Below, piece after piece: positions 11,234 through 64,000 of a stretch of DNA of 64,000 bases. The stretch spans positions 6,311,501 through 6,375,500 of the forward strand of contig OY727100.1 in assembly GCA_963402885.1 (NCBI GenBank), given 5' to 3'. Each line of letters starts with the position of its first letter. Position 1 is the first letter of the stretch. The notes under the pieces were generated by a model, which saw only the letters and a list, made by a program, of their open reading frames with translations, was not told where the DNA came from and did no database searches. This DNA comes from Antedon bifida. Taxonomy: Eukaryota > Echinodermata > Crinoidea > Comatulida > Antedonidae. The position numbers were made by a program, and so were the translations under genes.

Positions 11234-12350
11234 AAAAGTGGGAATTTTTGCCATTTTCGAAAAAATTCCTATGGTCCCCGCAGGAAAATTTTCTAAAAAT
11301 GGCAAAATTTCGACACTTTTATTATTTGACATAACTAGTTACTATGGCTTTATAAGATGATGTTAGCAAAATATATGTGTATAAATGGCAATATTATGGC
11401 ATAATTTCTGAATTTAAAAATGTGGAAATTATTTCCATTTTTCAATAAAATTCCTATGGTCCCAAGCAGGAAAATTTTCGAAAAATAACCAAATTTCGAC
11501 CCTTTTAATTTTTGATGTAACTAGTTACTATGGCTCTATAAGATGATGTTAGCACAATATATGTGCATAAATGGCAATATTTAGCATAATTATTGAATTT
11601 TAAAAAGTGGAAAATTTTGACATATTTCGACCCTTTTGTTTCTAGACATAACTAGTTGCTATGGCTCTATAAGATGATGTTAGCACAATATATGTGCATA
11701 AATGGCAATATTATAACATAATTTTGGAATTTTAAAAGGTGGAAATGTTGGCCATTTTTCGAAAAAAATTCCTATGGTCCCCCGCAGGGAAATTTTCGAA
11801 AAATGGTCAAATTTTCACCCTTTTATTTTTTGACATAACTCGTTACTATGGCTCTATAAGATGATGTTAACACAATATATGTGCATAAATGGCAATATTA
11901 TAGCCTAATTATTGAATTTTAAAAGGTGGAAATTTTGGTTATTTTTTGAAAAAATTCCTGTGGTCCTCCGTAGGAAAATTTTCGAAAAAAGGCCAAATTT
12001 CGACCCTTTTATTTTTTAACGTAACTAGTTACTATGGCTCTATAAGATGATGTTAGCACAATATATGTGCATAAATGGCAATATTATGGCATAATTTTTG
12101 AATTTTAAAAAGTGGAAAATTTTGCCATTTTTCGACCCTTTTGTTTCTAGACATAACTAGTTGCTATGGCTATATAAGATGAAGTTAGCACAATATATGT
12201 GCATAAATGGCAATATTATAACATAATTTTGGAATTTTAGAAAGTGGAAATGTTGGCCATTTTTCGAAAAAAATTCCTATGGTCCCCCGCAGGGAAATTT
12301 TCGAAAAATGGCCAAAATTTTACCCTTTTATTTTTTGACATAACTCGTTA
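11234..12350 (+). repeat. Array segment after the inverted monomer
   Basis: Direct-orientation monomers resume at AAAAGTGGGAATTTTTGCC. The word CGAAAAAAGGCC at 11983 recurs at 42554 and 46060. S monomers lie near 11625 and 12127, and a C monomer from about 12165 has CTATATAAGATGAAGTTAG. From 12032 the sequence is repeated at 46109 (shift 34077). There is no gene. Confidence 0.85.
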
Positions 12351-13601
12351 CTATGGCTCTATAAGATGATGTTAACACAATATATGTGCATAAATCGCAA
12401 TATTATAGCCTGATTATTGAATTTTAAAAGGTGGAAATTTTGGTTATTTTTTGAAAAAATTACTGTGGTCCTCCGTAGGAAAATTTTCGAAAAATGTCCA
12501 AATTTCGACCCTTTTTTTTTGACATAACTAGTTACTATGGGTCTATAGGATGATGTTAGCACAATATATTTGCATAAATGGCAATATTATAGCTTAATTT
12601 TCGAATTTTAAAAAGTGGAAATTTTTGCCTTTTTTCGAAAAAATTCCTATGGTCCCCCGCAGGGAAATTTTCGGAAAATATCCAAATTTCGACCCTTTTA
12701 TTTTTTGACATAACTAGTTACTATGGCTCTATAAGATGATGTTAGAACAATATATTTGCATAAATGGCCATATTATAGCATAAATATTGAATTTTAAAAA
12801 GTGGGAATTTTTGCCATTTTCGAAAAAATTCCTATGGTCCCCCGCAGGAAAATTTTCGGAAAATATCCAAATTTCGACCCTTTTATTTTTTGACATAACT
12901 AGTTACTATGGCTCTATAAGATGATGTTAGAACAATATATTTGCATAAATGGCCATATTATAGCATAAATATTGAATTTTAAAAAGTGGGAATTTTTGCC
13001 ATTTTCGAAAAACTTCCTATGGTCCCCCGCAGGAAAATTTTCGAAAAATGGCCAAATTTCGACACTTTTATTATTTGACATAACTAGTTACTATGGCTTT
13101 ATAAGATGATGTTAGCAAAATATATGTGTATAAATGGCAATATTATGGCATATTTTTTGAATTTTAAAGAGTGGAAATTGTTTCCATTTTTCAATAAAAT
13201 TCCTATGGTCACGGCAGGAAAATTTTCGAAAAATGGCCAAATTTCGACCCTTTTATTTTTTGATGTAACTAGTTACTATGGCTCTATAAGATGATGTTAG
13301 CACAATATATGTGCATAAATGGCAATATTATAGCATAATTATTGAATTTTAAAAAGTGGAAAATTTTGCCATTTTCGACCCTTTTGTTTCTAGACATAAC
13401 TAGTTGCTATGGCTCTATAAGATGATGTTAGCACACACAATAATAATATGTGCATAAATGGCAATATTATAACATAATTTTGGAATTTTAAAAAGTGGAA
13501 ATGTTGGCCATTTTTCGAAAAAAATTCCTATGGTCCCCCGCAGGGAAATTTTCGAAAAATGGCCAAATTTTCACCCCTTTATTTTTTGACATAACTCATT
13601 A
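12351..13601 (+). repeat. 1251-bp unit, copy 1 (D-E-A-A-B-S-C)
   Basis: Seven monomers, including two successive A types and an S type with the CA/ATA marker at 13431. Anchors repeat 1251 bp later: CTATGG at 12351 and 13602, TATGGGTC at 12537 and 13788, the marker at 13431 and 14682. The TATGGGTCTATAGG variant of type E is characteristic. Confidence 0.92.
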
Positions 13602-14852
13602 CTATGGCTCTATAAGATGATGTTAACACAATATATGTGCATAAATGGAAATATTATAGCCTAATTATTGAATTTTAAAAGGTGGAAATTTTGGTTATTT
13701 TTTGAAAAAATTACTGTGGTCCTCCGTAGGAAAATTTTCGAAAAATGTCCAAATTTCGACCCTTTTTTTTTGACATAACTAGTTACTATGGGTCTATAGG
13801 ATGATGTTAGCACAATATATTTGCATAAATGGCAATATTATAGCTTAATTTTCGAATTTTAAAAAGTGGAAATTTTTGCCGTTTTTCGAAAAAATTCCTA
13901 TGGTCCCCCGCAGGGAAATTTTCGGAAAATATCCAGATTTCGACCCTTTTATTTTTTGACATAACTAGTTACTATGGCTCTATAAGATGATGTTAGAACA
14001 ATATATTTGCATAAATGGCCATATTATAGCATAAATATTGAATTTTAAAAAGTGGGAATTTTTGCCATTTTCGAAAAAATTCCTATGGTCCCCCGCAGGA
14101 AAATTTTCGGAAAATATCCAAATTTCGACCCTTTTATTTTTTGACATAACTAGTTACTATGGCTCTATAAGATGATGTTAGAACAATATATTTGCATAAA
14201 TGGCCATATTATAGCATAAATATTGAATTTTAAAAAGTGGGAATTTTTGCCATTTTCGAAAAAATTCCTATGGTCCCCCGCAGGGAAATTTTCGAAAAAT
14301 GGCCAAATTTCGACACTTTTATTATTTGACATAACTAGTTACTATGGCTTTATAAGATGATGTTAGCAAAATATATGTGTATAAATGGCAATATTATGGC
14401 ATATTTTTTGAATTTTAAAGAGTGGAAATTGTTTCCATTTTTCAATAAAATTCCTATGGTCCCGGCAGGAAAATTTTCGAAAAATGGCCAAATTTCGACC
14501 CTTTTATTTTTTGATGTAACTAGTTACTATGGCTCTATAAGATGATGTTAGCACAATATATGTGCATAAATGGCAATATTATAGCATAATTATTGAATTT
14601 TAAAAAGTGGAAAATTTTGCCATTTTCGACCCTTTTGTTTCTAGACATAACTAGTTGCTATGGCTCTATAAGATGATGTTAGCACACACAATAATAATAT
14701 GTGCATAAATGGCAATATTATAACATAATTTTGGAATTTTAAAAAGTGGAAATGTTGGCCATTTTTCGAAAAAAATTCCTATGGTCCCCCGCAGGGAAAT
14801 TTTCGAAAAATGGCCAAATTTTCACCCCTTTATTTTTTGACATAACTCGTTA
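13602..14852 (+). repeat. 1251-bp unit, copy 2
   Basis: This is a tandem repeat of 12351-13601. Small differences seen include GCCGTTTTTCG here versus GCCTTTTTTCG, ATATCCAGATTTCG near 13930 versus ATATCCAAATTTCG, and GGTCCCGGCAGG near 14459 versus GGTCACGGCAGG. The same two-copy arrangement exists at 46428-48929, so it arose before the large block duplication. Confidence 0.92.
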
Positions 14853-15357
14853 CTATGGCTCTATAAGATGATGTTAACACAATATATGTGCATAAATGGA
14901 AATATTATAGCCTAATTATTGAATTTTAAAAGGTGGAAATTTTGGTTATTTTTTGAAAAAATTACTGTGGTCCTCCGTAGGAAAATTTTCGAAAAATGTC
15001 CAAATTTCGACCCTTTTTTTTTTACATAACTAGTTACTATGGGTCTATAGGATGATGTTAGCACAATATATTTGCATAAATGGCAATATTATAGCTTAAT
15101 TTTCGAATTTTAAAAAGTGGAAATTTTTGCCTTTTTTCGAAAAAATTCCTATGGTCCCCCGCAGGGAAATTTTCGGAAAATATCCAAATTTCGACCCTTT
15201 TATTTTTTGACATAACTAGTTACTATGGCTCTATAAGATGATGTTAGAACAATATATTTGCATAAATGGCCATATTATAGCATAAATATTGAATTTTAAA
15301 AAGTGGGAATTTTTGCCATTTTCGAAAAAATTCCTATGGTCCCCCGCAGGAAAATTT
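14853..15357 (+). repeat. 1251-bp unit, partial third copy
   Basis: TATGGGTC at 15039 is again 1251 bp beyond 13788. The match holds through D, E and most of an A monomer, then departs near 15357, where the sequence switches to the 5.1-kb-like series. The counterpart is at 48930-49434. Confidence 0.85.
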
Positions 15358-16334
15358 TCGAAAAATGGCCAAATTTCGACCATTTTATTTTTTGACATAA
15401 CTAGTTACTATGGCTCTATAAGATGATGTTAGCAAAATATATGTGTATAAATGGCAATATTTTGGCATAATTTTTGAATTTTAAAAAGTGGAAATTGTTT
15501 CCATTTTTAAAAAAAATTCATATGGTCCCCCGCAGGAAAATTTTCGAAAAATGGCCAAATTTCGACCCTTTTATTTTTTGATGTAACTAGTTACTATGGC
15601 TCTATAAGATGATGTTAGCACAATATATGTGCATAAATGGAAATATTATAACATAATTTTGGAATTTTAGAAAGTGGAAATGTTGGCCATTTTTCGAAAA
15701 AAATTCCTATGGTCCCCCGCAGGGAAATTTTCGAAAAATGGTCAAATTTTCACCCTTTTATTTTTTGACATAACTCGTTACTATGGCTCTATAAGATGAT
15801 GTTAACACAATATATGTGCATAAATGGCAATATTATAGCCTAATTATTGAATTTTAAAAGGTGGAAATTTTGGTTATTTTTTGAAAAAATTTATATGGTC
15901 CCCCGCAGGGAAATTTTCGGAAAATATCCAATTTTCGACCCTTTTATTTTTTGACATAACTAGTTACTATGGCTCTATAAGATGATGTTAGAACAATATA
16001 TTTGAATAATGGCCATATTATAGCATAATTATTGAATTTTATAAAGTGGGATTTTTGCCATTTTCGAAAAAATTCCTAAGGTCCCCCGCAGGAAAATTTT
16101 CTAAAAATGGCCAAATTTCGACCCTTTTATTTTTTGACATAACTAGTTACTATGGCTCTATAAGATGATGTTAGCAAAATATATGTGTATAAATGGCAAT
16201 ATTTTGGCATAATTTTTGAATTTTAAAAAGTGGAAATTGTTTCCATTTTTCAATAAAATTCCTATGGTCCCCCGCAGGAAAATTTTCGAAAAATGGCCAA
16301 ATTTCGACCTTTTTTTTTTTGATGTAATTAGTTA
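15358..16334 (+). repeat. Array segment matching 5.1-6.0 kb and 49.43-50.41 kb
   Basis: B, C, D and A monomers, with GAATAATGG at 16004 and a D/E chimera (AAAAATTTATATGGTCC) near 15890. It is shifted by about 10298 from 5.1 kb and by 34077 from 49.4 kb. There is no gene. Confidence 0.85.
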
Positions 16335-17034
16335 CTATGGCTCTAATTATCTAATTATTGAATTTTAAAAGGTGGACATTTTGGTTATTTTTTGAAAAAA
16401 TTCCTGTGGTCACCCGTAGGAAAATTTTCAAAAAATTGCCAAATTTCGACCCTTTTTTTTTGACGTAACTAGTTACTATGACTCTATAGGATGATGTTAG
16501 CACAATATATTTGCATAAATGGCAATATTATAGCATAATTTTCGAATTTTAAAAAGTGGAAATTTTTGCCATTTTTTGAAAAAATTCCTATGGTCCCCGC
16601 AGGGAAATTTTCGGAAAATATCCAAATTTCGACGACCCTTTTATTTTTTTACCTAACTAGTTACTATGGCTCTATAAGATGATATTAGAACAATATATTT
16701 GCATAAATGGCCATATTATAGCATAATTATTGAATTTTATAAAGTGGGAATTTTTGCCATTTTCGAAAAAATTCCTAAGGTCCCCCGCAAGAAAATTTTC
16801 TAAAAATAGCCAAATTTCGACCCTTTTATTTTTTGACATAACTAGTTACTATGGCTCTATAAGATGATGTTAGCAAAATATATGTGTATAAATGGCAATA
16901 TTTTGGCATAATTTTTGAATTTTAAAAAGTGGAAATTGTTTCCATTTTTCAATAAAATTCCTATGGTCCCCCGCAGGAAAATTTTCGAAAAATGGCCAAA
17001 TTTCGACCCTTTTATTTTTTGATGTAACTAGTTA
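16335..17034 (+). repeat. 700-bp segment absent from the second block
   Basis: The shift between blocks is 34078 at 16335/50413 and 33378 at 17035/50413: one CTATGG in the second block corresponds to two here. The 700 bp holds a truncated monomer (CTCTAATTATCTAATTATTG), then E-, A- and B-type monomers, and the same series exists at 6.04-6.7 kb. Its presence at 6 kb suggests the second block lost it. Confidence 0.88.
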
Positions 17035-19542
17035 CTATGGCTCTATAAGATGATGTTAGCGCAATATATGTGCATAAATGGAAATATTATAACATAATTT
17101 TGGAATTTTAGAAAGTGGAAATGTTGGCCATTTTTCGAAAAAAATTCCTATGGTCCCCCGCAGGGAAATTTTCGAAAAATGGTCAAATTTTCACCCTTTT
17201 ATTTTTTGACATAACTCGTTACTATGGCTCTATAAGATGATGTTAACACAATATATGTGCATAAATGGCAATATTATAGCCTAATTATTGAATTTTAAAA
17301 GGTGGAAATTTTGGTTATTTTTTGAAAAAATGTCTATGGTCCCCCGCAGGGAAATTTTCGGAAAATATCCAACTTTCGACCCTTTTATTTTTTGACATAA
17401 CTAGTTACTATGGCTCTATAAGATGATGTTAGAACAATATATTTGCATAAATGGCCATATTATAGCATAATTATTGAATTTTATAAAGTGGGAATTTTTG
17501 CCATTTTCGAAAAAAATCCTAAGGTCCCCCGCAGGAAAATTTTCTAAAAATGGCCAAATTCCGACCCTTTTATTTTTTGACATAACTAGTTACTATGGCT
17601 CTATAAGATGATGTTAGCAAAATATATGTGTATAAATGGCAATATTTTGGCATAATTTTTGAATTTTAAAAAGTGGAAATTGTTTCCATTTTTCAATAAA
17701 ATTCCTATGGTCCCCCGCAGGAAAATTTTCGAAAAATGGCCAAATTTCGACCCTTTTATTTTTTGATGTAACTAGTTACTATGGCTCTATAAGATGATGT
17801 TAGCACAATATATGTGCATAAATGGAAATATTATAACATAATTTTGGAATTTTAGAAAGTGGAAATGTTGGCCATTTTTCGAAAAAAAATTCCTATGGTC
17901 CCCCGCAGGGAAATTTTCGGAAAATGGTCAAATTTTCACCCTTTTATTTTTTGACATAACTCGTTACTATGGCTCTATAAGATGATGTTAACACAATATA
18001 TGTGCATAAATGGCAATATTATAGCATAATTATTGAATTTTAAAAAGTGGAAAATTTTGCCATATTCGATACTTTTGTTTCTAGACATATCTAGGTGCTA
18101 TGGCTCTATAAGATGATGTTAGCACAATATAATGTGCATGAATGGCAATATTATAACATAATTTTGGAATTTTAGAAAGTGGAAATGTTGGCCATTTTTC
18201 GAAAAAAATTCCTATGGTCCCCCGCAGGGAAATTTTCGAAAAATTGCCAAATTTTCACCCTTTTATTTCTTGACATAACTCGTTACTATGGCTCTATAAG
18301 ATGATGTTAACACAATATATGTGCATAAATGGTAATATTATAGCCTAATTATTGAATTTTAAAAGTGGAAATTTTGGTTATTTTTTGAAAAAAATCCTGT
18401 GGTCCCACGTAGGAAAAATTTCGAAAAATTTCCAAATTTCGACCCTTTTTTTTGACATAACTAGTTACTATGGCTCTATAGAATGATGTTAGCACAATAT
18501 ATTTGCATAAATGGCAATATTATAGCATAATTTTGAATTTTAAAAAGTGGTAATTTTTGCCGTTTTTCGAAAAATTTCCTATGATCCCCCACAGGGAAAT
18601 TTTCGGAAAATATCCAAATTTCGACCCTTTTATTTTTTGACATAACTAGTTACTATGGCTCTATAAGATGATGTTAGAACAATATATTTGCATAAATGGC
18701 CATATTATAGCATAATTATCGAATTTTAAAAAGGGGAAATTTTTGCCATTTTTCGAAAAAATTTCTATGGTCCCCCGCAGGGAAATTTTCGGAAAATATC
18801 CAACTTTCGACCCTTTTATTTTTTGACATAACTAGTTACTATGGCTCTATAAGATGATGTTAGAACAATATATTTGCATAAATGGCCATATTATAGCATA
18901 ATTATTGAATTTTATAAAGTGGGAATTTTTGCCATTTTCGAAAAAATTCCTAAGGTCCCCCGCAAGAAAATTTTCTAAAAATGGCCAAATTTCGACCCTT
19001 TTATTTTTTGACGTAACTAGTTACTATGGCTCTATAAGATGATGTTAGCAAAATATATGTGTATAAATGGCAATATTTTGGCATAATTTTTGAATTTTAA
19101 AAAGTGGAAATTGTTTCCATTTTTCAATAAAATTCCTATGGTCCCCCGCAGGAAAATTTTCGAAAAATGGCCAAATTTCGACCCTTTTATTTTTTGATGT
19201 AACTAGTTACTTTGGCTCTATAAGATGATGTTAGCGCAATATATGTGCATAAATGGAAATATTATAACATAATTTTGGAATTTTAGAAAGTGGAAATGTT
19301 GGCCATTTTTCGAAAAAAATTCCTATGGTCCCCCGCAGGGAAATTTTCGAAAAATGGTCAAATTTTCACCCTTTTATTTTTTGACATAACTCGTTACTAT
19401 GGCTCTATAAGATGATGTTAACACAATATATGTGCATAAATGGCAATATTATAGCCTAATTATTGAATTTTAAAAGGTGGAAATTTTGGTTATTTTTTGA
19501 AAAAATGTCTATGGTCCCCCGCAGGGAAATTTTCGGAAAATA
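17035..19542 (+). repeat. Array segment matching 50.41-52.92 kb
   Basis: GTTAGCGCAATATATGTG at 17055 matches 50433, and CATATTCGATACTTTTG at 18061 matches 51438, a shift of 33377-33378. The S-like monomer ending at about 18096 has a rare boundary, GACATATCTAGGTGCTATGG. CCCACGTAGG and GATCCCCCACAGGG box variants lie near 18400 and 18580. There is no gene. Confidence 0.87.
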
Positions 19543-22094
19543 TCCAACTTTCGACCCTTTTATTTTTTGACATAACTAGTTACTATGGCTCTATAAGATG
19601 ATGTTAGAACAATATATTTGCATAAATGGCAATAATATGGCATAATTTTTGAATTTTAAAAAGTGGAAATTGTTTCCATTTTTCAATAAAATTCCTATGA
19701 TCCCCCGCAGGAAAATTTTCGAAAAATGGCCAAATTTCGACCCTTTTATTTTTTGACATAACTAGTTACTATGGCTCTATAAGATGATGTTAGAACAATA
19801 TATTTGCATAAATGGCAATAATATGGCATAATTTTTGAATTTTAAAAAGTGGAAATTGTTTCCATTTTTCAATAAAATTCCTATGATCCCCCGCAGGAAA
19901 ATTTTCGAAAAATGGCCAAATTTCGACCCTTTTATTTTTTGACGTAACTAGTTACTATGGCTCTATAAGATGATGTTAGCACATTATATGTGCATAAATG
20001 GCAATATTATGGCATAATTTTTGAATTTTAAAAAGTGGAAAATTTTGCCATTTTTCGACCCTTTTGTTTCTAGACATAACTAGTTGCTATGGCTATATAA
20101 GATGATGTTAGCACAATATATGTGCATAAATGGCAATATTATAACATAATTTTGGAATTTTAGAAAGTGGAAATGTTGGCCTTTTTTTGAAAAAAATCCT
20201 GTGGTCCCACGTAGGAAAAATTTCGAAAAATTTCCAAATTTCGACCCTTTTTTTTGACATAACTAGTTACTATGGCTCTATAGAATGATGTTAGCACAAT
20301 ATATTTGCATAAATGGCAATATTATAGCATAATTTTGAATTTTAAAAAGTGGTAATTTTTGCCGTTTTTCGAAAAATTTCCTATGATCCCCCACAGGGAA
20401 ATTTTCGGAAAATATCCAAATTTCGACCCTTTTATTTTTTGACATAACTAGTTACTATGGCTCTATAAGATGATGTTAGAACAATATATTTGCATAAATG
20501 GCCATATTATAGCATAATTATCGAATTTTAAAAAGTGGAAAATTTTGCCATTTTCGAAAAAATTCCTATGGTCCCCCGCAGGAAAATTTTCTAAAAATGG
20601 CCAAATTTCGACCCTTTTATTTTTTGACATAACTAGTTACTATGGCTCTATAAGATGATGTTAGCAAAATATATGTGTATAAATGGCAATATTTTGGCAT
20701 AATTTTTGAATTTTAAAAAGTGGAAATTGTTTCCATTTTTCAATAAAATTCCTATGGTCCCCCGCAGGAAAATTTTCGAAAAATGGCCAAATTTCGACCC
20801 TTTTATTTTTTGATGTAACTAGTTACTATGGCTCTATAAGATGATGTTAGCGCAATATATGTGCATAAATGGAAATATTATAACATAATTTTGGAATTTT
20901 AGAAAGTGGAAATGTTGGCCATTTTTCGAAAAAAATTCCTATGGTCCCCCGCAGGGAAATTTTCGAAAAATGGTCAAATTTTCACCCTCGTTACTATGGC
21001 TCTATAAGATGATGTTAACACAATATATGTGCATAAATGGCAATATTATAGCCTAATTATTGAATTTTAAAAGGTGGAAATTTTGGTTATTTTTTGAAAA
21101 AATGTCTATGGTCCCCCGCAGGGAAATTTTCGGAAAATATCCATCTTTCGACCCTTTTATTTTTTGACATAACTAGTTACTATGGCTCTATAAGATGATG
21201 TTAGAACAATATATTTGCATAAATGGCCATATTATAGCATAATTATTGAATTTTATAAAGTGGGAATTTTTGCCATTTTCGAAAAAATTCAGGAAAATTT
21301 TCTAAAAATGGCCAAATTCCGACCCTTTTATTTTTTGACATAACTAGTTACTATGGCTCTATAAGATGATTTTAGCAAAATATATGTGTATAAATGGCAA
21401 TATTTTGGCATAATTTTGGAATTTTAAAAAGTGGAAATTGTTTCCATTTTTCAATAAAATTCCTATGGTCCCCCGCAGGAAAATTTTCGAAAAATGGCCA
21501 AATTTCGACCCTTTTATTTCTAGACATAACTAGTTGCTATGGCTCTATAAGATGATGTTAGCACAATATATGTGCATAAATGGCAATATTATAACATAAT
21601 TTTGGAATTTTAGAAAGTGGAAATGTAGGCCATTTTTCGAAAAAAATTCCTATGGTCCCCCGCAGGGAAATTTTCGAAAAATGGCCAAAATTTCATCCTT
21701 TTATTTTTTGACATAACTCGTTACTATGGCTCTATAAGATGATGTTAACACAATATATGTGCATAAATGGCAATATTATAGCCTGATTATTGAATTTTAA
21801 AAGGTGGAAATTTTGGTTATTTTTTGAAAAAATTCCTGTGGACCCCCGTAGGAAAATTTTAGAAAAATGTCCAAATTTCGACCCTTTTTTTTTTTACATA
21901 ACTAGTTACTATGGCTCTATAGGATGATGTTAGCACAATATATTTGCATAAATGGCAATATTATAGCATAATTTTCGAATTTTAAAAAGTGGAAATTGTT
22001 TCCATTTTTCAATAAAATTCCTATGATCCCCCGCAGGAAAATTTTCGAAAAATGGCCAAATTTCGACCCTTTTATTTTTTGACGTAACTAGTTA
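19543..22094 (+). repeat. Array segment matching 1-1.64 kb and 52.92-56.35 kb
   Basis: Two successive A/B chimeric monomers (head GTTAGAACAATATATTTGC, tail AATTGTTTCCATTTTTCAATAAAA) start near 19585 and 19767, followed by an S monomer with CACATTATATGTGC. The second block has 876 bp more in this interval (shift 33377 becoming 34253). Then come A, B, C, D, A, B, C, D and E/B monomers as in 1-1.64 kb. There is no gene. Confidence 0.87.
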
Positions 22095-22226
22095 CTATGG
22101 CTCTATAAGATGATGTTAGCACAATATATGTGCATAAATGGCAATATTATGGCATAATTTTTGAATTTTAAAAAGTGGAAAATTTTGCCATTTTTCGACC
22201 CTTTTGTTTCTAGACATAACTAGTTG
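22095..22226 (+). repeat. Monomer type S (short, GC box deleted), reference
   Basis: This type is 132 bp. It starts as the others do, has ATTATGGCATAATTTTTG or ATAATTATTG in its middle and then runs from GTGGAAAATTTTGCCATT straight into TTTCGACCCTTTTG. About 52 bp are missing relative to full-length types, comprising the GC-rich box and one arm of the surrounding inverted repeat. It nearly always ends with GTTTCTAGACATAACTAGTTGC, a linked variant that marks the S-to-C boundary. Variants with GAAATTTTTCGACC or GACATTTTTCGACC are seen at 10.1, 31.6 and 32.0 kb. Confidence 0.9.
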
Positions 22227-22413
22227 CTATGGCTATATAAGATGATGTTAGCACAATATATGTGCATAAATGGCAATATTATAACATAATTTTGGAATTT
22301 TAGAAAGTGGAAATGTTGGCCATTTTTCGAAAAAAATTCCTATGGTCCCCCGCAGGGAAATTTTCGAAAAATTGCCAAAATTTCATCCTTTTATTTTTTG
22401 ACATAACTCGTTA
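22227..22413 (+). repeat. Monomer type C, reference
   Basis: This type is 187 bp. Diagnostic words are GTTAGCACAATATATGTGC, ATTATAACATAATTTTGG, TTTTAGAAAGTGG and GAAATGTTGGCCATTTTTCG. It holds the best inverted repeat of any type around the GC-rich box (see 1213-1275). It usually ends with TTTTCACCC (here TTTCATCC) and ATAACTCGTTACTATGG, where the palindrome TAACTAGTTA is altered by A-to-C. Confidence 0.9.
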
Positions 22414-22598
22414 CTATGGCTCTATAAGATGATGTTAACACAATATATGTGCATAAATGGCAATATTATAGCCTGATTATTGAATTTTAAAAGGTGGAAA
22501 TTATGGTTATTTTTTGAAAAAATTCCTGTGGACCCCCGTAGGAAAATTTTCGAAAAATGTCCAAATTTCGACCCTTTTTTTTTTTACATAACTAGTTA
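22414..22598 (+). repeat. Monomer type D, reference
   Basis: This type is 185 bp. Diagnostic words are GATGTTAACACAATATATG, ATTATAGCCTAATTATTG (here CCTGATTATTG), TTTTAAAAGGTGG, TTTTGGTTATTTTTTG and the altered box CCTGTGGTCCCCCGTAGG (here GTGGACCCCCGTAGG). It is usually followed by AAATGTCCAAATTTCGACC and a pure T-run, in place of the more common TTTTATTTTTTG. Confidence 0.9.
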
Positions 22599-22784
22599 CT
22601 ATGGCTCTATAGGATGATGTTACCACAATATATTTGCATAAATGGCAATAGTATAGCATAATTTTCGAATTTTAAAAAGTGGAAATTTTTGCCATTTTTC
22701 GAAAAAATTCCTATGGTCCCCCGCAGGGAAATTTTCGGAAAATATCCAAATTTCGACCCTTTTATTTTTTAACCTAACTAGTTA
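22599..22784 (+). repeat. Monomer type E, reference
   Basis: This type is 186 bp. Diagnostic words are CTCTATAGGATGATG (G in place of A), CAATATATTTGCATAAATGG, GCATAATTTTCGAATTTT and, after the box, GCAGGGAAATTTTCGG followed by AAAATATCC. It is normally followed by type A. The inverted monomers at 11.1, 33.4, 40.0, 41.7, 43.6 and 45.2 kb derive from an E-to-A junction like the one here. Confidence 0.9.
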
Positions 22785-45184: not shown

Positions 45185-45310
45185 GCAATGCAAATGTATT
45201 GTTCTAACATCATCTTATAGAGCCATAGTAACTAGTTATGTCAAAAAATAAAAGGGTCGAAATTTGGATATTTTCCGAAAAATTCCCTGCGGGGGACCAT
45301 AGGAATTTTT
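45185..45310 (-). repeat. Inverted partial monomer I6
   Basis: Same element 3506 bp after I4 and 34077 bp after I1. The direct array after it continues as in 11.2-12.3 kb, so this is the positional counterpart of I1 in the large block. Confidence 0.93.
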
Positions 45311-50412: not shown

Positions 50413-53140
50413 CTATGGCTCTATAAGATGATGTTAGCGCAATATATGTGCATAAATGGAAATATTATAACATAATTTTGGAATTTTAGAAAGTGGAAAT
50501 GTTGGCCATTTTTCGAAAAAAATTCCTATGGTCCCCCGCAGGGAAATTTTCGAAAAATGGTCAAATTTTCACCCTTTTATTTTTTGACATAACTCGTTAC
50601 TATGGCTCTATAAGATGATGTTAACACAATATATGTGCATAAATGGCAATATTATAGCCTAATTATTGAATTTTAAAAGGTGGAAATTTTGGTTATTTTT
50701 TGAAAAAATGTCTATGGTCCCCCGCAGGGAAATTTTCGGAAAATATCCAACTTTCGACCCTTTTATTTTTTGACATAACTAGTTACTATGGCTCTATAAG
50801 ATGATGTTAGAACAATATATTTGCATAAATGGCCATATTATAGCATAATTATTGAATTTTATAAAGTGGGAATTTTTGCCATTTTCGAAAAAATTCCTAA
50901 GGTCCCCCGCAGGAAAATTTTCTAAAAATGGCCAAATTCCGACCCTTTTATTTTTTGACATAACTAGTTACTATGGCTCTATAAGATGATGTTAGCAAAA
51001 TATATGTGTATAAATGGCAATATTTTGGCATAATTTTTGAATTTTAAAAAGTGGAAATTGTTTCCATTTTTCAATAAAATTCCTATGGTCCCCCGCAGGA
51101 AAATTTTCGAAAAATGGCCAAATTTCGACCCTTTTATTTTTTGATGTAACTAGTTACTATGGCTCTATAAGATGATGTTAGCACAATATATGTGCATAAA
51201 TGGAAATATTATAACATAATTTTGGAATTTTAGAAAGTGGAAATGTTGGCCATTTTTCGAAAAAAATTCCTATGGTCCCCCGCAGGGAAATTTTCGGAAA
51301 ATGGTCAAATTTTCACCCTTTTATTTTTTGACATAACTCGTTACTATGGCTCTATAAGATGATGTTAACACAATATATGTGCATAAATGGCAATATTATA
51401 GCATAATTATTGAATTTTAAAAAGTGGAAAATTTTGCCATATTCGATACTTTTGTTTCTAGACATATCTAGGTGCTATGGCTCTATAAGATGATGTTAGC
51501 ACAATATAATGTGCATAAATGGCAATATTATAACATAATTTTGGAATTTTAGAAAGTGGAAATGTTGGCCATTTTTCGAAAAAAATTCCTATGGTCCCCC
51601 GCAGGGAAATTTTCGAAAAATTGCCAAATTTTCACCCTTTTATTTCTTGACATAACTCGTTACTATGGCTCTATAAGATGATGTTAACACAATATATGTG
51701 CATAAATGGTAATATTATAGCCTAATTATTGAATTTTAAAAGTGGAAATTTTGGTTATTTTTTGAAAAAAATCCTGTGGTCCCACGTAGGAAAAATTTCG
51801 AAAAATTTCCAAATTTCGACCCTTTTTTTTGACATAACTAGTTACTATGGCTCTATAGAATGATGTTAGCACAATATATTTGCATAAATGGCAATATTAT
51901 AGCATAATTTTGAATTTTAAAAAGTGGTAATTTTTGCCGTTTTTCGAAAAATTTCCTATGATCCCCCACAGGGAAATTTTCGGAAAATATCAAAATTTCG
52001 ACCCTTTTATTTTTTGACATAACTAGTTACTATGGCTCTATAAGATGATGTTAGAACAATATATTTGCATAAATGGCCATATTATAGCATAATTATCGAA
52101 TTTTAAAAAGGGGAAATTTTTGCCATTTTTCGAAAAAATTTCTATGGTCCCCCGCAGGGAAATTTTCGGAAAATATCCAACTTTCGACCCTTTTATTTTT
52201 TGACATAACTAGTTACTATGGCTCTATAAGATGATGTTAGAACAATATATTTGCATAAATGGCCATATTATAGCATAATTATTGAATTTTATAAAGTGGG
52301 AATTTTTGCCATTTTCGAAAAAATTCCTAAGGTCCCCCGCAAGAAAATTTTCTAAAAATGGCCAAATTTCGACCCTTTTATTTTTTGACGTAACTAGTTA
52401 CTATGGCTCTATAAGATGATGTTAGCAAAATATATGTGTATAAATGGCAATATTTTGGCATAATTTTTGAATTTTAAAAAGTGGAAATTGTTTCCATTTT
52501 TCAATAAAATTCCTATGGTCCCCCGCAGGAAAATTTTCGAAAAATGGCCAAATTTCGACCCTTTTATTTTTTGATGTAACTAGTTACTTTGGCTCTATAA
52601 GATGATGTTAGCGCAATATATGTGCATAAATGGAAATATTATAACATAATTTTGGAATTTTAGAAAGTGGAAATGTTGGCCATTTTTCGAAAAAAATTCC
52701 TATGGTCCCCCGCAGGGAAATTTTCGAAAAATGGTCAAATTTTCACCCTTTTATTTTTTGACATAACTCGTTACTATGGCTCTATAAGATGATGTTAACA
52801 CAATATATGTGCATAAATGGCAATATTATAGCCTAATTATTGAATTTTAAAAGGTGGAAATTTTGGTTATTTTTTGAAAAAATGTCTATGGTCCCCCGCA
52901 GGGAAATTTTCGGAAAATATCCAACTTTCGACCCTTTTATTTTTTGACATAACTAGTTACTATGGCTCTATAAGATGATGTTAGAACAATATATTTGCAT
53001 AAATGGCAATAATATGGCATAATTTTTGAATTTTAAAAAGTGGAAATTGTTTCCATTTTTCAATAAAATTCCTATGATCCCCCGCAGGAAAATTTTCGAA
53101 AAATGGCCAAATTTCGACCCTTTTATTTTTTGACATAACT
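50413..53140 (+). repeat. Array segment matching 17.03-19.76 kb
   Basis: The shift is 33377-33378 throughout: GTTAGCGC at 50433, CATATTCGATAC at 51438 and TCCAACTTTCG at 52920. A and B types precede C and D in each round. There is no gene. Confidence 0.85.
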
Positions 53141-54340
53141 AGTTACTATGGCTCTATAAGATGATGTTAGCAAAATATATGTGTATAAATGGCAATATTT
53201 TGGCATAATTTTTGAATTTTAAAAAGTGGAAATTGTTTCCATTTTTCAATAAAATTCCTATGGTCCCCCGCAGGAAAATTTTCGAAAAATGGCCAAATTT
53301 CGACCCTTTTATTTTTTGATGTAACTAGTTACTATGGCTCTATAAGATGATGTTAGCACAATATATGTGCATAAATGGAAATATTATAACATAATTTTGG
53401 AATTTTAGAAAGTGGAAATGTTGGCCATTTTTCGAAAAAAAATTCCTATGGTCCCCCGCAGGGAAATTTTCGGAAAATGGTCAAATGTTCACCCTTTTAT
53501 TTTTTGACATAACTCGTTACTATGGCTCTATAAGATGATGTTAACACAATATATGTGCATAAATGGCAATATTATAGCCTAATTATTGAATTTTAAAAGG
53601 TGGAAATTTTGGTTATTTTTTGAAAAAATTCCTGTGGTCCTCCGTAGGAAAATTTTCGAAAAAAGTCCAAATTTCGACCCTTTTGTTTTTGACATAACTA
53701 GTTACTATGGCTCTATAAGATGATGTTAGAACAATATATTTGCATAAATGGCAATAATATGGCATAATTTTTGAATTTTAAAAAGTGGAAATTGTTTCCA
53801 TTTTTCAATAAAATTCTTATGATCCCCCGCAGGAAAATTTTCGAAAAATGGCCAAATTTCGACCCTTTTATTTTTTGACGTAACTAGTTACTATGGCTCT
53901 ATAAGATGATGTTAGCACATTATATGTGCATAAATGGCAATATTATGGCATAATTTTTGAATTTTAAAAAGTGGAAAATTTTGCCATTTTTCGACCCTTT
54001 TGTTTTTGACATAACTAGTTACTATGGCTCTATAAGATGATGTTAGAACAATATATTTGCATAAATGGCAATAATATGGCATAATTTTTGAATTTTAAAA
54101 AGTGGAAATTGTTTCCATTTTTCAATAAAATTCCTATGATCCCCCGCAGGAAAATTTTCGAAAAATGGCCAAATTTCGACCCTTTTATTTTTTGACGTAA
54201 CTAGTTACTATGGCTCTATAAGATGATGTTAGCACATTATATGTGCATAAATGGCAATATTATGGCATAATTTTTGAATTTTAAAAAGTGGAAAATTTTG
54301 CCATTTTTCGACCCTTTTGTTTCTAGACATAACTAGTTGC
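53141..54340 (+). repeat. Expanded interval with a 317-bp tandem duplication (A/B chimera plus S)
   Basis: An A/B chimeric monomer plus an S monomer (CACATTATATGTGC) occur at 53705-54021 and again at 54022-54339. The copies differ by AAAATTCTTATG versus AAAATTCCTATG and by GTTTTTGACATAAC versus GTTTCTAGACATAAC at the end. Together with B, C and D monomers upstream this accounts for 876 bp not present at 19.7-20.1 kb. Confidence 0.88.
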
Positions 54341-57205
54341 TATGGCTATATAAGATGATGTTAGCACAATATATGTGCATAAATGGCAATATTATAACAT
54401 AATTTTGGAATTTTAGAAAGTGGAAATGTTGGCCATTTTTTGAAAAAAATCCTGTGGTCCCACGTAGGAAAAATTTCGAAAAATTTCCAAATTTCGACCC
54501 TTTTTTTTGACATAACTAGTTACTATGGCTCTATAGAATGATGTTAGCACAATATATTTGCATAAATGGCAATATTATAGCATAATTTTGAATTTTAAAA
54601 AGTGGTAATTTTTGCCGTTTTTCGAAAAATTTCCTATGATCCCCCACAGGGAAATTTTCGGAAAATATCCAAATTTCGACCCTTTTATTTTTTGACATAA
54701 CTAGTTACTATGGCTCTATAAGATGATGTTAGAACAATATATTTGCATAAATGGCCATATTATAGCATAATTATCGAATTTTAAAAAGTGGAAAATTTTG
54801 CCATTTTCGAAAAAATTCCTATGGTCCCCCGCAGGAAAATTTTCTAAAAATGGCCAAATTTCGACCCTTTTATTTTTTGACATAACTAGTTACTATGGCT
54901 CTATAAGATGATGTTAGCAAAATATATGTGTATAAATGGCAATATTTTGGCATAATTTTTGAATTTTAAAAAGTGGAAATTGTTTCCATTTTTCAATAAA
55001 ATTCCTATGGTCCCCCGCAGGAAAATTTTCGAAAAATGGCCAAATTTCGACCCTTTTATTTTTTGATGTAACTAGTTACTATGGCTCTATAAGATGATGT
55101 TAGCGCAATATATGTGCATAAATGGAAATATTATAACATAATTTTGGAATTTTAGAAAGTGGAAATGTTGGCCATTTTTCGAAAAAAATTCCTATGGTCC
55201 CCCGCAGGGAAATTTTCGAAAAATGGTCAAATTTTCACCCTCGTTACTATGGCTCTATAAGATGATGTTAACACAATATATGTGCATAAATGGCAATATT
55301 ATAGCCTAATTATTGAATTTTAAAAGGTGGAAATTTTGGTTATTTTTTGAAAAAATGTCTATGGTCCCCCGCAGGGAAATTTTCGGAAAATATCCATCTT
55401 TCGACCCTTTTATTTTTTGACATAACTAGTTACTATGGCTCTATAAGATGATGTTAGAACAATATATTTGCATAAATGGCCAAATTATAGCATAATTATT
55501 GAATTTTATAAAGTGGGAATTTTTGCCATTTTCGAAAAAATTCAGGAAAATTTTCTAAAAATGGCCAAATTCCGACCCTTTTATTTTTTGACATAACTAG
55601 TTACTATGGCTCTATAAGATGATTTTAGCAAAATATATGTGTATAAATGGCAATATTTTGGCATAATTTTGGAATTTTAAAAAGTGGAAATTGTTTCCAT
55701 TTTTCAATAAAATTCCTATGGTCCCCCGCAGGAAAATTTTCGAAAAATGGCCAAATTTCGACCCTTTTATTTCTAGACATAACTAGTTGCTATGGCTCTA
55801 TAAGATGATGTTAGCACAATATATGTGCATAAATGGCAATATTATAACATAATTTTGGAATTTTAGAAAGTGGAAATGTTGGCCATTTTTCGAAAAAAAT
55901 TCCTATGGTCCCCCGCAGGGAAATTTTCGAAAAATGGCCAAAATTTCATCCTTTTATTTTTTGACATAACTCGTTACTATGGCTCTATAAGATGATGTTA
56001 ACACAATATATGTGCATAAATGGCAATATTATAGCCTGATTATTGAATTTTAAAAGGTGGAAATTTTGGTTATTTTTTGAAAAAATTCCTGTGGACCCCC
56101 GTAGGAAAATTTTCGAAAAATGTCCAAATTTCGACCCTTTGTTTTTTTTACATAACTAGTTACTATGGCTCTATAGGATGATGTTAGCACAATATATTTG
56201 CATAAATGGCAATATTATAGCATAATTATCGAATTTTAAAAAGTGGAAATTGTTTCCATTTTTCAATAAAATTCCTATGATCCCCCGCAGGAAAATTTTC
56301 GAAAAATGGCCAAATTTTGACCCTTTTATTTTTTGACGTAACTAGTTACTATGGCTCTATAAGATGATGTTAGCACAATATATGTGCATAAATGGCAATA
56401 TTATGGCATAATTTTTGAATTTTAAAAAGTGGAAAATTTTGCCATTTTTCGACCCTTTTGTTTCTAGACATAACTAGTTGCTATGGCTATATAAGATGAT
56501 GTTAGCACAATATATGTGCATAAATGGCAATATTATAACATAATTTTGGAATTTTAGAAAGTGGAAATGTTGGCCATTTTTCGAAAAAAATTCCTATGGT
56601 CCCCCGCAGGGAAATTTTCGAAAAATTGCCAAAATTTCATCCTTTTATTTTTTGACATAACTCGTTACTATGGCTCTATAAGATGATGTTAACACAATAT
56701 ATGTGCATAAATGGCAATATTATAGCCTGATTATTGAATTTTAAAAGGTGGAAATTATGGTTATTTTTTGAAAAAATTCCTGTGGACCCCCGTAGGAAAA
56801 TTTTCGAAAAATGTCCAAATTTCGACCCTTTTTTTTTTTACATAACTAGTTACTATGGCTCTATAGGATGATGTTAGCACAATATATTTGCATAAATGGC
56901 AATATTATAGCATAATTTTCGAATTTTAAAAAGTGGAAATTTTTGCCATTTTTCGAAAAAATTCCTATGGTCCCCCGCAGGGAAATTTTGGGAAAATATC
57001 CAAATTTCGACACTTTTATTTTTTAACCTAACTAGTTACTATGGCTCTATAAGATGATGTTAGAACAATATTATATTTGCATAAATGGCCATATTATAGC
57101 ATAATTATTGAATTTTAAAAAGTGAGAATTTTTGCCATTTTCGAAAAAAATCCTATGGTCCCCCGCAGGAAAATTTTCTAAAAATGGCCAAATTTCGACC
57201 CTTTT
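54341..57205 (+). repeat. Array segment matching 20.1-24.0 kb with one copy of the 1052-bp unit
   Basis: ACCCTCGTTA at 55237, CCATCTTTCG at 55394 and ATTCAGG at 55540 are shifted 34253 from the first block. GTTTTTTTGACATGG at 57206 matches 22952 at 34254 and 24004 at 33202, showing that only one 1052-bp unit is present. There is no gene. Confidence 0.87.
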
Positions 57206-60200
57206 GTTTTTTTGACATGGCTCTATAAGATGATGTTAGCAAAATATATGTGTATAAATGGCAATATTATGACATAATTTTTGAATTTTAAAAAGTGGAA
57301 ATTGTTTCCATTTTTCAATAAAATTCCTATGGTCCCCCGCAGGAAAATTTTCTAAAAATGGCCAAATTTCGACCCTTTTATTTTTTGATGTAACTAGTCG
57401 CTATGGCTCTATAAGATGATGTTAGCACAATATATGTGCACAAATGGCAATATTATAACATAATTTTGGAATTTTAGAAAGTGGAAATGTTGGCCATTTT
57501 TCGAAAAAATTCCTGTAGTCCCCCGTAGGAAAATTTTCGAAAAATGGCCAAATTTCGACCCTTTTTTTTTTTGACATAACTAGTTACTATGGCTCTATAG
57601 GATGATGTTAGCACAATATATTTGCATAAATGGCAATATTATAGCATAATATTGAATTTTAAAAAGTGGAAAATTTTGCTATTTTTCAATAAAATTCCTA
57701 TGGTCCCCCGGAGGAAAATTTTCGAAAAATGGCCAAATTTCGACCCTTTTGTTTCTAGACATAACTAGTTGCTATGGCTCTATAAGATGATGTTAGCACA
57801 ATATATGTGCATAAATGGCAATATTATAACATAATTTTGGAATTTTAGAAAGTGGAAATTTTGGTTATTTTTTGAAAAAATTCCTGTGGTCCCCCGTAGG
57901 AAAATTTTCAAAAAATGTCAAAATTTTCACCCTTTTATTTTTTCTATAAGATGATGTTAACACAATATATGTGCATAAATGGCAATATTATAGCCTAATT
58001 ATTGAATTTTAAAATGTGGACATTTTGGTTATTTTTTGAAAAAATTCCTGTGGTCCCCCGTAGGAAAATGTTCAAAAAATTGCCAAATTTCGACCCTTTT
58101 TTTTGACGTAACTAGTTACTATGACTCTATAGGATGATGTTAGCACAATATATTTGCATAAATGGCAATATTATAGCATAATTTTCGAATTTTAAAAAGT
58201 GGAAATTTTTGCCATTTTTCGAAAAAAATCCTATAGTCCCCGCAGGGAAATTTTCGGAAAATATCCAAATTTCGACGACCCTTTTATTTTTTGACCTAAC
58301 TAGTTACTATGGCTCTATAAGATGATGTTAGAACATTATATTTGCATAAATGGCCATATTATAGCATAATTATTGAATTTTAAAAAGTGAGAATTTTTGC
58401 CATTTTCGAAAAAATTCCTATGGTCCCCCACAGGAAAATTTTCTAAAAATGGCAAAATTTCGACCCTTTTGTTTTTTTGACATGGCTCTATAAGATGATG
58501 TTAGCAAAATATATGTGTATAAATGGCAATATTATGACATAATTTTTGAATTTTAAAAAGTGGAAATTGTTTCCATTTTTCAATAAAATTCCTATGGTCC
58601 CCCGCAGGAAAATTTTCTAAAAATGGCCAAATTTCGACCCTTTTATTTTTTGATGTAACTAGTCGCTATGGCTCTATAAGATGATGTTAGCACAATATAT
58701 GTGCACAAATGGCAATATTATAACATAATTTTGGAATTTTAGAAAGTGGAAATGTTGGCCATTTTTCGAAAAAATTCCTGTGGTCCCCCGTAGGAAAATT
58801 TTCGAAAAATGGCCAAATTTCGACCCTTTTTTTTTTTTACGTAACTAGTTACTATGGCTCTATAAGATGATGTTAGCAAAATATATGTGTATAAATGGCA
58901 ATATTATGACATAATTTTTGAATTTTAAAAAGCGAAAATTGTTTCGATTTTTCAATAAAATTCCTATGGTCCCCCGCAGGAAAATTTTCGAAAAATGGCC
59001 AAATTTCGACCCTTTTATTTGTTGATGTAACTAGTTACTATGGCTCTATAAGATGATGTTAGCACAATATATGTGCATAAATGGCAATATTATAACATAA
59101 TTTTGGAATTTTAGAAAGTGGAAATTTTGGTTATTTTTTGAAAAAATTCCTGTGGTCCCCCGTAGGAAAATTTTCAAAAAATGTCCAAATTTCGACCCTT
59201 TTATTTTTTGACATAACTAGTTACTATGGCTCTATAAGATGATGTTAGTACAATATATGTGCATAAATGGCAATATTATAGCATAATTATTGAATTTTAA
59301 AAAGTGGAAAATTTTGCCATTTTTCGACCCATTTGTTTCAAGACATAACTAGTTGCTATGGCTATATAAGATGATGTTAGCACAATATATGTGCATAAAT
59401 GGCAATATTATAACATAATTTTGGAATTTTAGAAAGTGGAAATGTTGGCCATTTTTCGAAAAAAATTCCTATGGTCCCCCGCAGGGAAATTTTCGAAAAA
59501 TGGCCAAATTTTCACCCTTTTATTTTTTGACATATCTCGTTACTATGGCTCTATAAGATGATGTTAGAACAATATATTTGCATAAATGGCAATATTATGG
59601 CATAATTTTTGAATTTTAAAAAGTGGAAATTGTTTCCATTTTTCAATAAAATTCCCATGATCCCCCGCAGGAAAATTTTCGAAAAATGGCCAAATTTCGA
59701 CCCTTTTATTTTTTGACGTAACTAGTTACTATGGCTCTATAAGATGATGTTAGCACAATATATGTGCATAAATGGCAATATTATGGCATAATTTTTGAAT
59801 TTTAAAAAGTGGAAAATTTTGCCATTTTTCGACCCTTTTTTTTCTAGACATAACTAGTTGCTATGGCTATATAAGATGATGTTAGCACAATATATGTGCA
59901 TAAATGGCAATATTATAACATAATTTTGGAATTTTAGAAAGTGGAAATGTTGGCCATTTTTCGAAAAAAATTCCTATGGTCCCCCGCAGGGAAATTTTCG
60001 AAAAATGGCCAAATTTTCACCCTTTTATTTTTTCTATAAGATGATGTTAACACAATATATGTGCATAAATGGCAATATTATAGCCTAATTATTGAATTTT
60101 AAAAGGTGGACATTTTGGTTATTTTTTGAAAAAATTCCTGTGGTCCCCCGTAGGAAAATTTTCAAAAATTGCCAAATTTCGACCCTTTTTTTTTGACGTA

Positions 60201-63200
60201 ACTAGTTACTATGACTCTATAGGATGATGTTAGCACAATATATTTGCATAAATGGCAATATTATAGCATAATTTTCGAATTTTAAAAAGTGGAAATTTTT
60301 GCCATTTTTCGAAAAAAATCCTATAGTCCCCGCAGGGAAATTTTCGGAAAATATCCAAATTTCGACGACCCTTTTATTTTTTGACCTAACTAGTTACTAT
60401 GGCTCTATAAGATGATGTTAGAACATTATATTTGCATAAATGGCCATATTATAGCATAATTATTGAATTTTAAAAAGTGAGAATTTTTGCCATTTTCGAA
60501 AAAAATCCTATGGTCCCCCACAGGAAAATTTTCTAAAAATGGCCAAATTTCGACCCTTTTGTTTTTTTGACATGGCTCTATAAGATGATGTTAGCAAAAT
60601 ATATGTGTATAAATGGCAATATTATGACATAATTTTTGAATTTTAAAAAGTGGAAATTGTTTCCATTTTTCAATAAAATTCCTATGGTCCCCCGCAGGAA
60701 AATTTTCTAAAAATGGCCAAATTTCGACCCTTTTATTTTTTGATGTAACTAGTCGCTATGGCTCTATAAGATGATGTTAGCACAATATATGTGCACAAAT
60801 GGCAATATTATAACATAATTTTGGAATTTTAGAAAGTGGAAATGTTGGCCATTTTTCGAAAAAATTCCTGTAGTCCCCCGTAGGAAAATTTTCGAAAAAT
60901 GGCCAAATTTCGACCCTTTTTTTTTTTGACATAACTAGTTACTATGGCTCTATAGGATGATGTTAGCACAATATATTTGCATAAATGGCAATATTATAGC
61001 ATAATATTGAATTTTAAAAAGTGGAAAATTTTGCTATTTTTCAATAAAATTCCTATGGTCCCCCGGAGGAAAATTTTCGAAAAATGGCCAAATTTCGACC
61101 CTTTTGTTTCTAGACATAACTAGTTGCTATGGCTCTATAAGATGATGTTAGCACAATATATGTGCATAAATGGCAATATTATAACATAATTTTGGAATTT
61201 TAGAAAGTGGAAATTTTGGTTATTTTTTGAAAAAATTCCTGTGGTCCCCCGTAGGAAAATTTTCAAAAAATGTCCAAATTTTCACCCTTTTATTTTTTCT
61301 ATAAGATGATGTTAACACAATATATGTGCATAAATGGCAATATTATAGCCTAATTATTGAATTTTAAAATGTGGACATTTTGGTTATTTTTTGAAAAAAT
61401 TCCTGTGGTCCCCCGTAGGAAAATTTTCAAAAAATTGCCAAATTTCGACCCTTTTTTTTGACGTAACTAGTTACTATGACTCTATAGGATGATGTTAGCA
61501 CAATATATTTGCATAAATGGCAATATTATAGCATAATTTTCGAATTTTAAAAAGTGGAAATTTTTGCCATTTTTCGAAAAAAATCCTATAGTCCCCGCAG
61601 GGAAATTTTCGGAAAATATCCAAATTTCGACGACCCTTTTATTTTTTGACCTAACTAGTTACTATGGCTCTATAAGATGATGTTAGAACATTATATTTGC
61701 ATAAATGGCCATATTATAGCATAATTATTGAATTTTAAAAAGTGAGAATTTTTGCCATTTTCGAAAAAATTCCTATGGTCCCCCACAGGAAAATTTTCTA
61801 AAAATGGCCAAATTTCGACCCTTTTGTTTTTTTGACATGGCTCTATAAGATGATGTTAGCAAAATATATGTGTATAAATGGCAATATTATGACATAATTT
61901 TTGAATTTTAAAAAGTGGAAATTGTTTCCATTTTTCAATAAAATTCCTATGGTCCCCCGCAGGAAAATTTTCTAAAAATGGCCAAATTTCGACCCTTTTA
62001 TTTTTTGATGTAACTAGTCGCTATGGCTCTATAAGATGATGTTAGCACAATATATGTGCACAAATGGCAATATTATAACATAATTTTGGAATTTTAGAAA
62101 GTGGAAATGTTGGCCATTTTTCGAAAAAATTCCTGTGGTCCCCCGTAGGAAAATTTTCGAAAAATGGCCAAATTTCGACCCTTTTTTTTTTTTACGTAAC
62201 TAGTTACTATGGCTCTATAAGATGATGTTAGCAAAATATATGTGTATAAATGGCAATATTATGACATAATTTTTGAATTTTAAAAAGCGAAAATTGTTTC
62301 GATTTTTCAATAAAATTCCTATGGTCCCCCGCAGGAAAATTTTCGAAAAATGGCCAAATTTCGACCCTTTTATTTGTTGATGTAACTAGTTACTATGGCT
62401 CTATAAGATGATGTTAGCACAATATATGTGCATAAATGGCAATATTATAACATAATTTTGGAATTTTAGAAAGTGGAAATTTTGGTTATTTTTTGAAAAA
62501 ATTCCTGTGGTCCCCCGTAGGAAAATTTTCAAAAAATGTCCAAATTTCGACCCTTTTTTTTTTGACATAACTAGTTACTATGGCTCTATAGGATGATGTT
62601 AGCACAATATATTTGCATAAATGGCAATATTATAGCATAATATTGAATTTTAAAAAGTGGAAAATTTTGCTATTTTTCGACCCTTTTGTTTCTAGACATA
62701 ACTAGTTGCTATGGCTCTATAAGATGATGTTAGCACAATATATGTGCATAAATGGCAATATTATAACATAATTTTGGAATTTTAGAAAGTGGAAATGTTG
62801 GCCATTTTTCGAAAAAAATTCCTATGGTCCCCCGCAGGGAAATTTTCGAAAAATGGCCAAATTTTCACCCTTTTATTTTTTGACATAAATCGTTACTATG
62901 GCTCTATAAGATGATGTTAACACAATATATGTGCATAAATGGCAATATTATAGCCTAATTATTGAATTTTAAAAGGTGGAAATTTTGGTTATTTTTTGAA
63001 AAAATTGCTGTGGGAAAATTTTCGAAAAATGTCCAAATTTCGACCCCTTTTTTTTTTTACATAACTAGTTACTATGGCTCTATAGGATGATGTTAGCACA
63101 ATATATTTGCATAAATGGTAATATTATAGCATAATTTTCGAATTTTAAAAAGTGGAAATTTTTACCATTTTCGACCCTTTTATTTTTTGACATAACTAGT

Positions 63201-64000
63201 TACTATGGCTCTATAAGATGATGTTAGCAAAATATATGTGTATAAATGGCAATATTATGACATAATTTTTGAATTTTAAAAAGCGGAAATTGTTTCGATT
63301 TTTCAATAAAATTCCTATGGTCCCCCGCAGGAAAATTTTCGAAAAATGGCCAAATTTCGACCCTTTTATTTGTTGATGTAACTAGTTACTATGGCTCTAT
63401 AAGATGATGTTAGCACAATATATGTGCACAAATGGCAATATTATAACATAATTTTGGAATTTTAGAAAGTGGAAATGTTGGCCATTTTTCGAAAAAATTC
63501 CTGTGGTCCCCCGTAGGAAAATTTTCGAAAAATAGCCAAATTTCGACCCTTTTTTTTTTGACGTAACTAGTTACTATGGCTCTATAGGATGGTGTTAGCA
63601 CAATATATTTGCATAAATGGCAATATTATAGCATAATTTTCGAATTTTAAAAAGTGTAAATTTTTTATATTTTTCAAAAAAATTCCTATGGTCCCCCGCA
63701 GGGAAATTTTCGGAAAATATCCAAATTTCGACCCTTTAATTTTTTGACATAACTAGTTACTATGGCTCTATAAGATGATGTTAGAACAATATATTTGCAT
63801 AAAAGGCCATATTATAGCATAATTATTGAATTTTAAAAAGTTTGAATTTTTGCCATTTTCGAAAAAATTCCAGTGGTCCCCCGCAGGAAAATTTTCTAAA
63901 AATGGTCAAATTTTGACCCTTTTTATTTTTTTACATAACTAGTTACTATGGCTCTATAAGATGATGTTAGCAAAATATATGTGTATAAATGGCAGTATTA
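57206..64000 (+). repeat. Array segment matching 24.0-30.8 kb
   Basis: The 1265/2092-bp pattern is kept: GTTTTTTTGACATGGC at 57206, 58471, 60561 and 61826, and TTTTTTCTATAAG with CTATAAG at 57944, 60034 and 61299. TGTGGGAAAATT at 63009 matches 29809. The array runs off the window end. There is no gene. Confidence 0.87.

Follow-up and report, generated by a model that had tools for sequence, protein, structure and literature searches.

A probable tandem segmental duplication of about 30 kb, modified by small block gains and losses, in a 186-bp satellite array of Antedon bifida

The window analysed here, a stretch of 64,000 nucleotides from the crinoid Antedon bifida (assembly GCA_963402885.1, contig OY727100.1, positions 6,311,501 to 6,375,500), is occupied from 1 to 64000 by a single AT-rich satellite array, as established by Tandem Repeats Finder, wraparound decomposition and a monomer list. 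All positions below are those of the window, and features are given on the forward strand unless they are called inverted. Tandem Repeats Finder reported a monomer of ~186 bp across the entire 64-kb window, GC content over the window is ~29%, and wraparound alignment to the consensus resolved 373 monomers, a figure that includes cut and inverted pieces; 93.5% of the aligned bases match the consensus. Average linkage with a threshold of 5 differences sorted these monomers into 68 types, referred to by T numbers. Shorter monomer forms also occur, for example of 131, 164, 168 and 175 bp. The decomposition jumps over a 54-55 bp deletion (columns ~98-152) 47 times, yielding 131-132 bp monomers (e.g., at 2335, 7391, 10123 and 12130), and this short form apparently spread via block duplications.

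An inverted monomer of ~153 bp, without consensus columns 42-71, has six occurrences, each in a T40-T41-T42 neighbourhood (11111-11263, 33384-33536, 40051-40203, 41682-41834, 43557-43709 and 45188-45340), and is a handy landmark for the large units described below. A short inverted monomer piece (31847-31914, with minus-strand matches of 21 + 47 bp) is found once in the window, in the unit that we call C. Most monomers also carry an imperfect internal dyad (columns ~75-166, ~69-85% identity), which by our count accounts for 264 of the 278 minus-strand consensus matches. Folding of one monomer as single-stranded DNA yielded a z of -1.97, with 6 of 200 shuffles equally good. Searches of the window returned no Rfam family at gathering score and no match to the CENP-B box pattern, an absence that decides nothing on a centromeric role. 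A 21-base satellite motif was without match in the searched literature full text and, as a pattern, in the searched viral contigs, and a 24-base exact satellite pattern was without match in the searched genome contigs.

Within this array the monomers at ~7.4-30.8 kb recur, with their order kept, at ~37.3-64.0 kb. The first copy, A, occupies 7383-30800 as far as its partner lies within the window, and the second, B, occupies 37262-64000 and runs off the window end; both were delimited by monomer alignment, self-BLAST and exact matches, and B also by painting 30757-64000 from 1-30756. Self-alignment, keeping pieces of at least 600 bp at 97% identity or more, pairs 10515-16345 with 44593-50423 (99.6%, shift 34078), 16395-20058 with 49775-53435 (98.3% as a single gapped piece, shift 33380/33377), 19735-23250 with 53989-57504 (99.4%, shift 34254) and 22963-30800 with 56165-64000 (99.6%, shift 33202/33200). 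A preliminary description of this DNA had proposed that its second part is a large-scale copy of the first, citing variants that recur at shifts of 34077, 33377, 34253 and 33200; these shifts proved real, being four successive diagonals of one broken alignment. The self-alignment does contain long diagonals near 33-34 kb, and the diagonal is interrupted by block indels. Among the distances between two-copy 24-mers, 33377 and 34077 rank as the top two, 33200 fifth and 33202 eighth, with local distances such as 10298 and 3506 placed above the latter pair.

Alignment of the array as a string of monomers (0-176 against 177-372) bore out the proposed ordered copy, with a score of 574.5 over 122 monomer pairs against at most 16 in 20 permuted orders and 9 for the reversed order. 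A further 240 shuffles permuted blocks of 1, 5, 10 or 20 monomers (60 per block size) and scored at most 23, 125.5, 330 and 427, respectively; the last two values reveal the contribution of local block order alone. Unit A holds 123 monomers (53-175), 111 of which pair colinearly with B, and 75 of these 111 pairs are identical. Two exact matches mark the left edge, 7383-7878 with 37262-37757 (496 bp) and 8708-9197 with 37714-38203 (490 bp). As is characteristic of a tandem segmental duplication, a long colinear block is present twice and the two are mutually closer than either is to other paralogs.

The extent of the copies and the meaning of the shift needed revision. A large copy is present as first described, but the first copy starts from ~7.4 kb instead of 12.0 kb and the second from ~37.3 kb, and the 30.8-37.3 kb stretch is not part of the second copy. 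Similarly, the ~33-34 kb shift holds over most of the core but is a derived value. Young homology starts at 7383, matching 37262 at an offset of 29,879 bp, and successive A-B offsets are then 29,006; 28,940; 34,077; 33,378/33,377; 34,253/34,254; and 33,202-33,200. Seven block changes shift the offset along the way (-873, -66, +1631, +3506, -700, +876 and -1052 bp). Because they account for the later 33-34 kb offset, ~29.9 kb is the best estimate of the duplicated length; the full unit would be 7383-37261, with its end beyond the window. Just left of the start, the stretch 6748-7435 carries 9 substitutions relative to its partner over 688 bp (1.3% divergence) and lies outside the young copy.

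The putative duplication joint lies at 37262-37389, as located by junction scans with 0 mismatches and by exact matches. Here the sequence switches, within 127 bp of identity and with 0 mismatches, between two paralogous blocks, the left block (36615-37388) being equal to 28820-29593 in the tail of A and the right block to 7383-7878. The switch interval lengthens to 171 bp when the left source is taken to be the tail of B and shrinks to 71 bp when it is the partial copy Z. The joint would be a novel one. Its exchange partner cannot be uniquely named, since Z, A, C and B all share one identical T11-T14 block of 687-688 bp. Taken over all seams, a first set of junction scans gave three results with 1-2 mismatches and five with none, the duplication joint being scanned twice among the latter; in a second set of seven, one had 0 and four had 1-4 mismatches, and two ungapped scans on a hybrid monomer, T66, had 53 each and failed to resolve it.

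The block changes themselves are of several kinds. At the 873-bp step the seam has 44 bp of identity with 0 mismatches, and we read the step as a loss in B, where a hybrid monomer is found (monomer 218, 37677-37862), T16 on its left and T35 on its right by column comparison and junction scan. The 66-bp step does not amount to a full monomer; a short monomer pair (252 bp) in A corresponds to one 186-bp monomer in B. The next step, of 5137 bp, is an expansion private to B (39087-46195), made up of a 3506-bp tandem duplication on top of a 1631-bp gain. The tandem duplication has 6 mismatches in 3603 bp and a seam of 51 bp of identity with 0 mismatches, and within it B1 is the same as B3, and B2 as B4, across 817 bp. 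The seam left by the 1631-bp gain is ambiguous over just 8 bp, with 1-2 mismatches. Column comparison and the monomer list also brought out T66 (41112-41292, with a second copy at 44618-44798), in which columns 1-76 are like T25 and columns 69-186 like T28 except one. Judged from its sequence, T66 would be a scar of unequal exchange.

Further to the right, a four-monomer block of A (16346-17045, 699-700 bp) is absent from B and was probably lost from it; the junction scan of this 700-bp step has 2 mismatches and no single clean interval. The T31-T32 neighbour pair is also found at 6048-6376. Conversely, an 876-bp block of B (53157-54032) is absent from A, from which it was probably lost, and its seam has 44 bp of identity with 0 mismatches. 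The last change is a 1052-bp tandem duplication private to A (22106-23157), whose units are 1 substitution apart and differ by 4 and 3 from the B unit. We rejected a loss in B as the origin of this 1052-bp difference, since A1 and A2 are mutually closer than they are to B. Junction scans at the 1052- and 5137-bp steps gave long intervals with 1-4 mismatches.

Divergence between the copies is low. Over the 19,526 bp of the core, A and B are 99.8% identical, with 40 substitutions between them and 5 small indels. This count starts at monomer 55; left out of it are monomer pair 54/221 with its 14 differences, the final, truncated pair 176/372 with 2, and pairs 39-53 on the left, which hold 11 substitutions and a gap of 55 columns. 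The 496- and 490-bp exact matches lie left of the core and are not within these 19,526 bp. When the 45 core differences were polarised, 23 were derived in B and 21 in A, with 1 lacking an outgroup, and A and B thus mutated at a similar pace after the split. At none of the 45 sites are both states seen in other monomers of that type, so later conversion within types is not indicated in the core, and the pattern of polarisation is as expected for a single split followed by independent mutation. Clustering of the core differences is not significant (variance/mean 1.44, P 0.12). For aligned monomers only, A and B differ by 2.3 differences/kb, as against 4.8-14.6 for nine other unit pairs. There are seven block changes in all, of which the core holds five, and setting them beside the 45 small core differences allows structural and point change to be compared directly in satellite DNA.

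Other large units are found to the left of and between the two copies. At the left edge of the window lies Z (1-3448), a partial large-scale copy of the middle and tail of A and B that, by its substitution rates in blocks, is for the most part older. Substitutions in two of its blocks amount to 0.46% and 0.62% for Z-A, 0.69% and 0.69% for Z-B and 0.23% and 0.34% for A-B, all on small counts, and the main offsets of Z to A are 20.4 and 27.1-27.3 kb. It seems that large-scale copying occurred more than once, with differing lengths. Between A and B lies the left part of unit C (30757-37261), a shortened relative of the start of A that has diverged further (8.0 differences/kb to A over aligned monomers) and would close the duplicated segment. 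The same head of monomer types, T19-T20-T21-T22-T23-T24, starts stretches at 3449, 9227 and 30757, and the head at 38233 reads T18-T21-T22-T23-T24; the stretches sharing a head are 5.8, 21.5, 7.7 and more than 25 kb long.

Smaller repeats place these events in order. A seven-monomer higher-order repeat of 1251 bp differs by 1 substitution between A1 and B1 and by 3 between A2 and B2, as against 9 between A1 and A2 and 9 between B1 and B2; it is orthologous between the copies and therefore predates the large duplication. Those of 1052 and 3506 bp, in contrast, arose after it. The four copies of a 3.36-kb repeat are 0-3 substitutions apart in the 1092 bp compared, which gives no date relative to the large duplication.

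Taken together, we consider it very probable that the array holds a real tandem segmental duplication of this extent. The preliminary description had suggested that whole blocks were duplicated segmentally or exchanged out of register, on a scale above that of usual higher-order repeats, and this is the best fit to the joints and the mutation pattern. The colinearity and divergence of the copies, the seams and the two hybrid monomers are plainly visible in the array, and the last two are, on the whole, the trace expected of unequal homologous exchange between paralogous monomers. We infer the exchange mechanism, as we do the full unit length and the direction of some block changes. A ~29.9-kb segment (7383-37261) would have been duplicated in tandem via unequal homologous exchange between two paralogous blocks (T11-T14 and the start of T4) over ~127 bp of perfect identity. 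Both copies would then have mutated independently, while smaller exchanges may have added and removed monomer blocks in each, so that the offset, 29,879 bp at first, would have shifted step by step to 33-34 kb.

As an alternative, an assembly artefact might have set two haplotypes of the array end to end, making A and B alleles. The 0.2% divergence and the block indels would suit alleles, and the supposedly older Z is identical to A and B in T11-T14. However, in two other blocks the divergence of this third partial copy is 1.8 to 3 times as large as that between A and B, albeit on small substitution counts (4 and 6 against 2, and 9 and 10 against 5). Identity between the two sources at the joint extends over no more than 127 bp, which would offer little for an overlap-based misjoin, and the 1-3.5 kb local duplications represent the same process inside each copy. 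We regard such an artefact as quite unlikely. It is highly improbable that a regular super-higher-order repeat continues through the array at a fixed period of 33-34 kb. It would account for the A-B offsets of 33,200-34,254 over most of the core, but at the left edge the offset starts out as 29,879, to be altered at each block indel, the stretches with the same head range from 5.8 and 7.7 to 21.5 and more than 25 kb, and no single diagonal continues left of ~6.7 kb. A fixed period was accordingly rejected, as the offsets run from 29,879 to 33,202-33,200 via block steps.

A further alternative touches the mechanism only. Replication template switching or reinsertion of an extrachromosomal circle, instead of crossing over, could have produced the duplication, and where the seam is homologous an identical product would be expected; the 8-bp seam of the 1631-bp gain would also fit template switching. 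Against this, four seams lie in paralogous in-phase monomers with 44-127 bp of identity and are simply explained by exchange, and we judge the alternative unlikely. It overlaps with tandem duplication as such, and the probabilities that we assign to the various readings sum to more than one. Tandem duplication by unequal exchange might itself belong to a wider scheme, which we raise tentatively and hold to be doubtful: the array may alternate large units of two kinds, long and short, whose length is elastic, with exchange favoured at a few blocks such as T11-T14, and a short-plus-long pair may have been duplicated. Each unit would begin with the T19-T24 head, B having a changed head (T18-T21-T24); the long units Z, A and B would end in T16-T12-T11-T17-T18, and the short units Y (5.8 kb) and C (7.7 kb) around T16 ... 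T38-T28. If true, this would amount to a third, elastic order of repeat organisation.

The window is a well-kept record of satellite array growth, in which a duplication of tens of kilobases is ordered relative to older and younger block duplications and several seams are readable to within ~50-150 bp. A ~30-kb duplication in which small blocks were apparently gained and lost afterwards would be an instructive case of an ordinary mode of array evolution. It is established that satellite arrays expand and contract over tens to thousands of kilobases and that unequal crossover is among the causes (PMC9859433), and for new human alpha-satellite variants other mechanisms have been proposed too (PMC11062924). 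Human alpha-satellite higher-order repeat arrays are likewise tandem and gain and lose blocks, with unequal crossover among the processes (PMC9859433; PMC11062924). The window differs from human alpha satellite in its monomer (~186 bp, ~29% GC), in giving no CENP-B box match and in having no fixed higher-order unit over its length. The cascading and super higher-order repeats of orangutan alpha satellite similarly show an order above the ordinary higher-order repeat (PMC12428378). By comparison, the large unit in the window is irregular in length and has two good copies only. As regards monomer length, the 186-bp satellite of Sparus aurata is known as the EcoRI family; the window is without a GAATTC site. 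The 186-bp unit stated for that species (PMC12008808) is likened to ours by length. The 186-bp higher-order repeat VG-V of Vicia grandiflora is also alike in length but is a pentamer of 38-bp monomers, unlike the monomer of the window (PMC2543021). Among these systems the duplication described here stands as a new and readable instance of the established gain and loss of satellite blocks.
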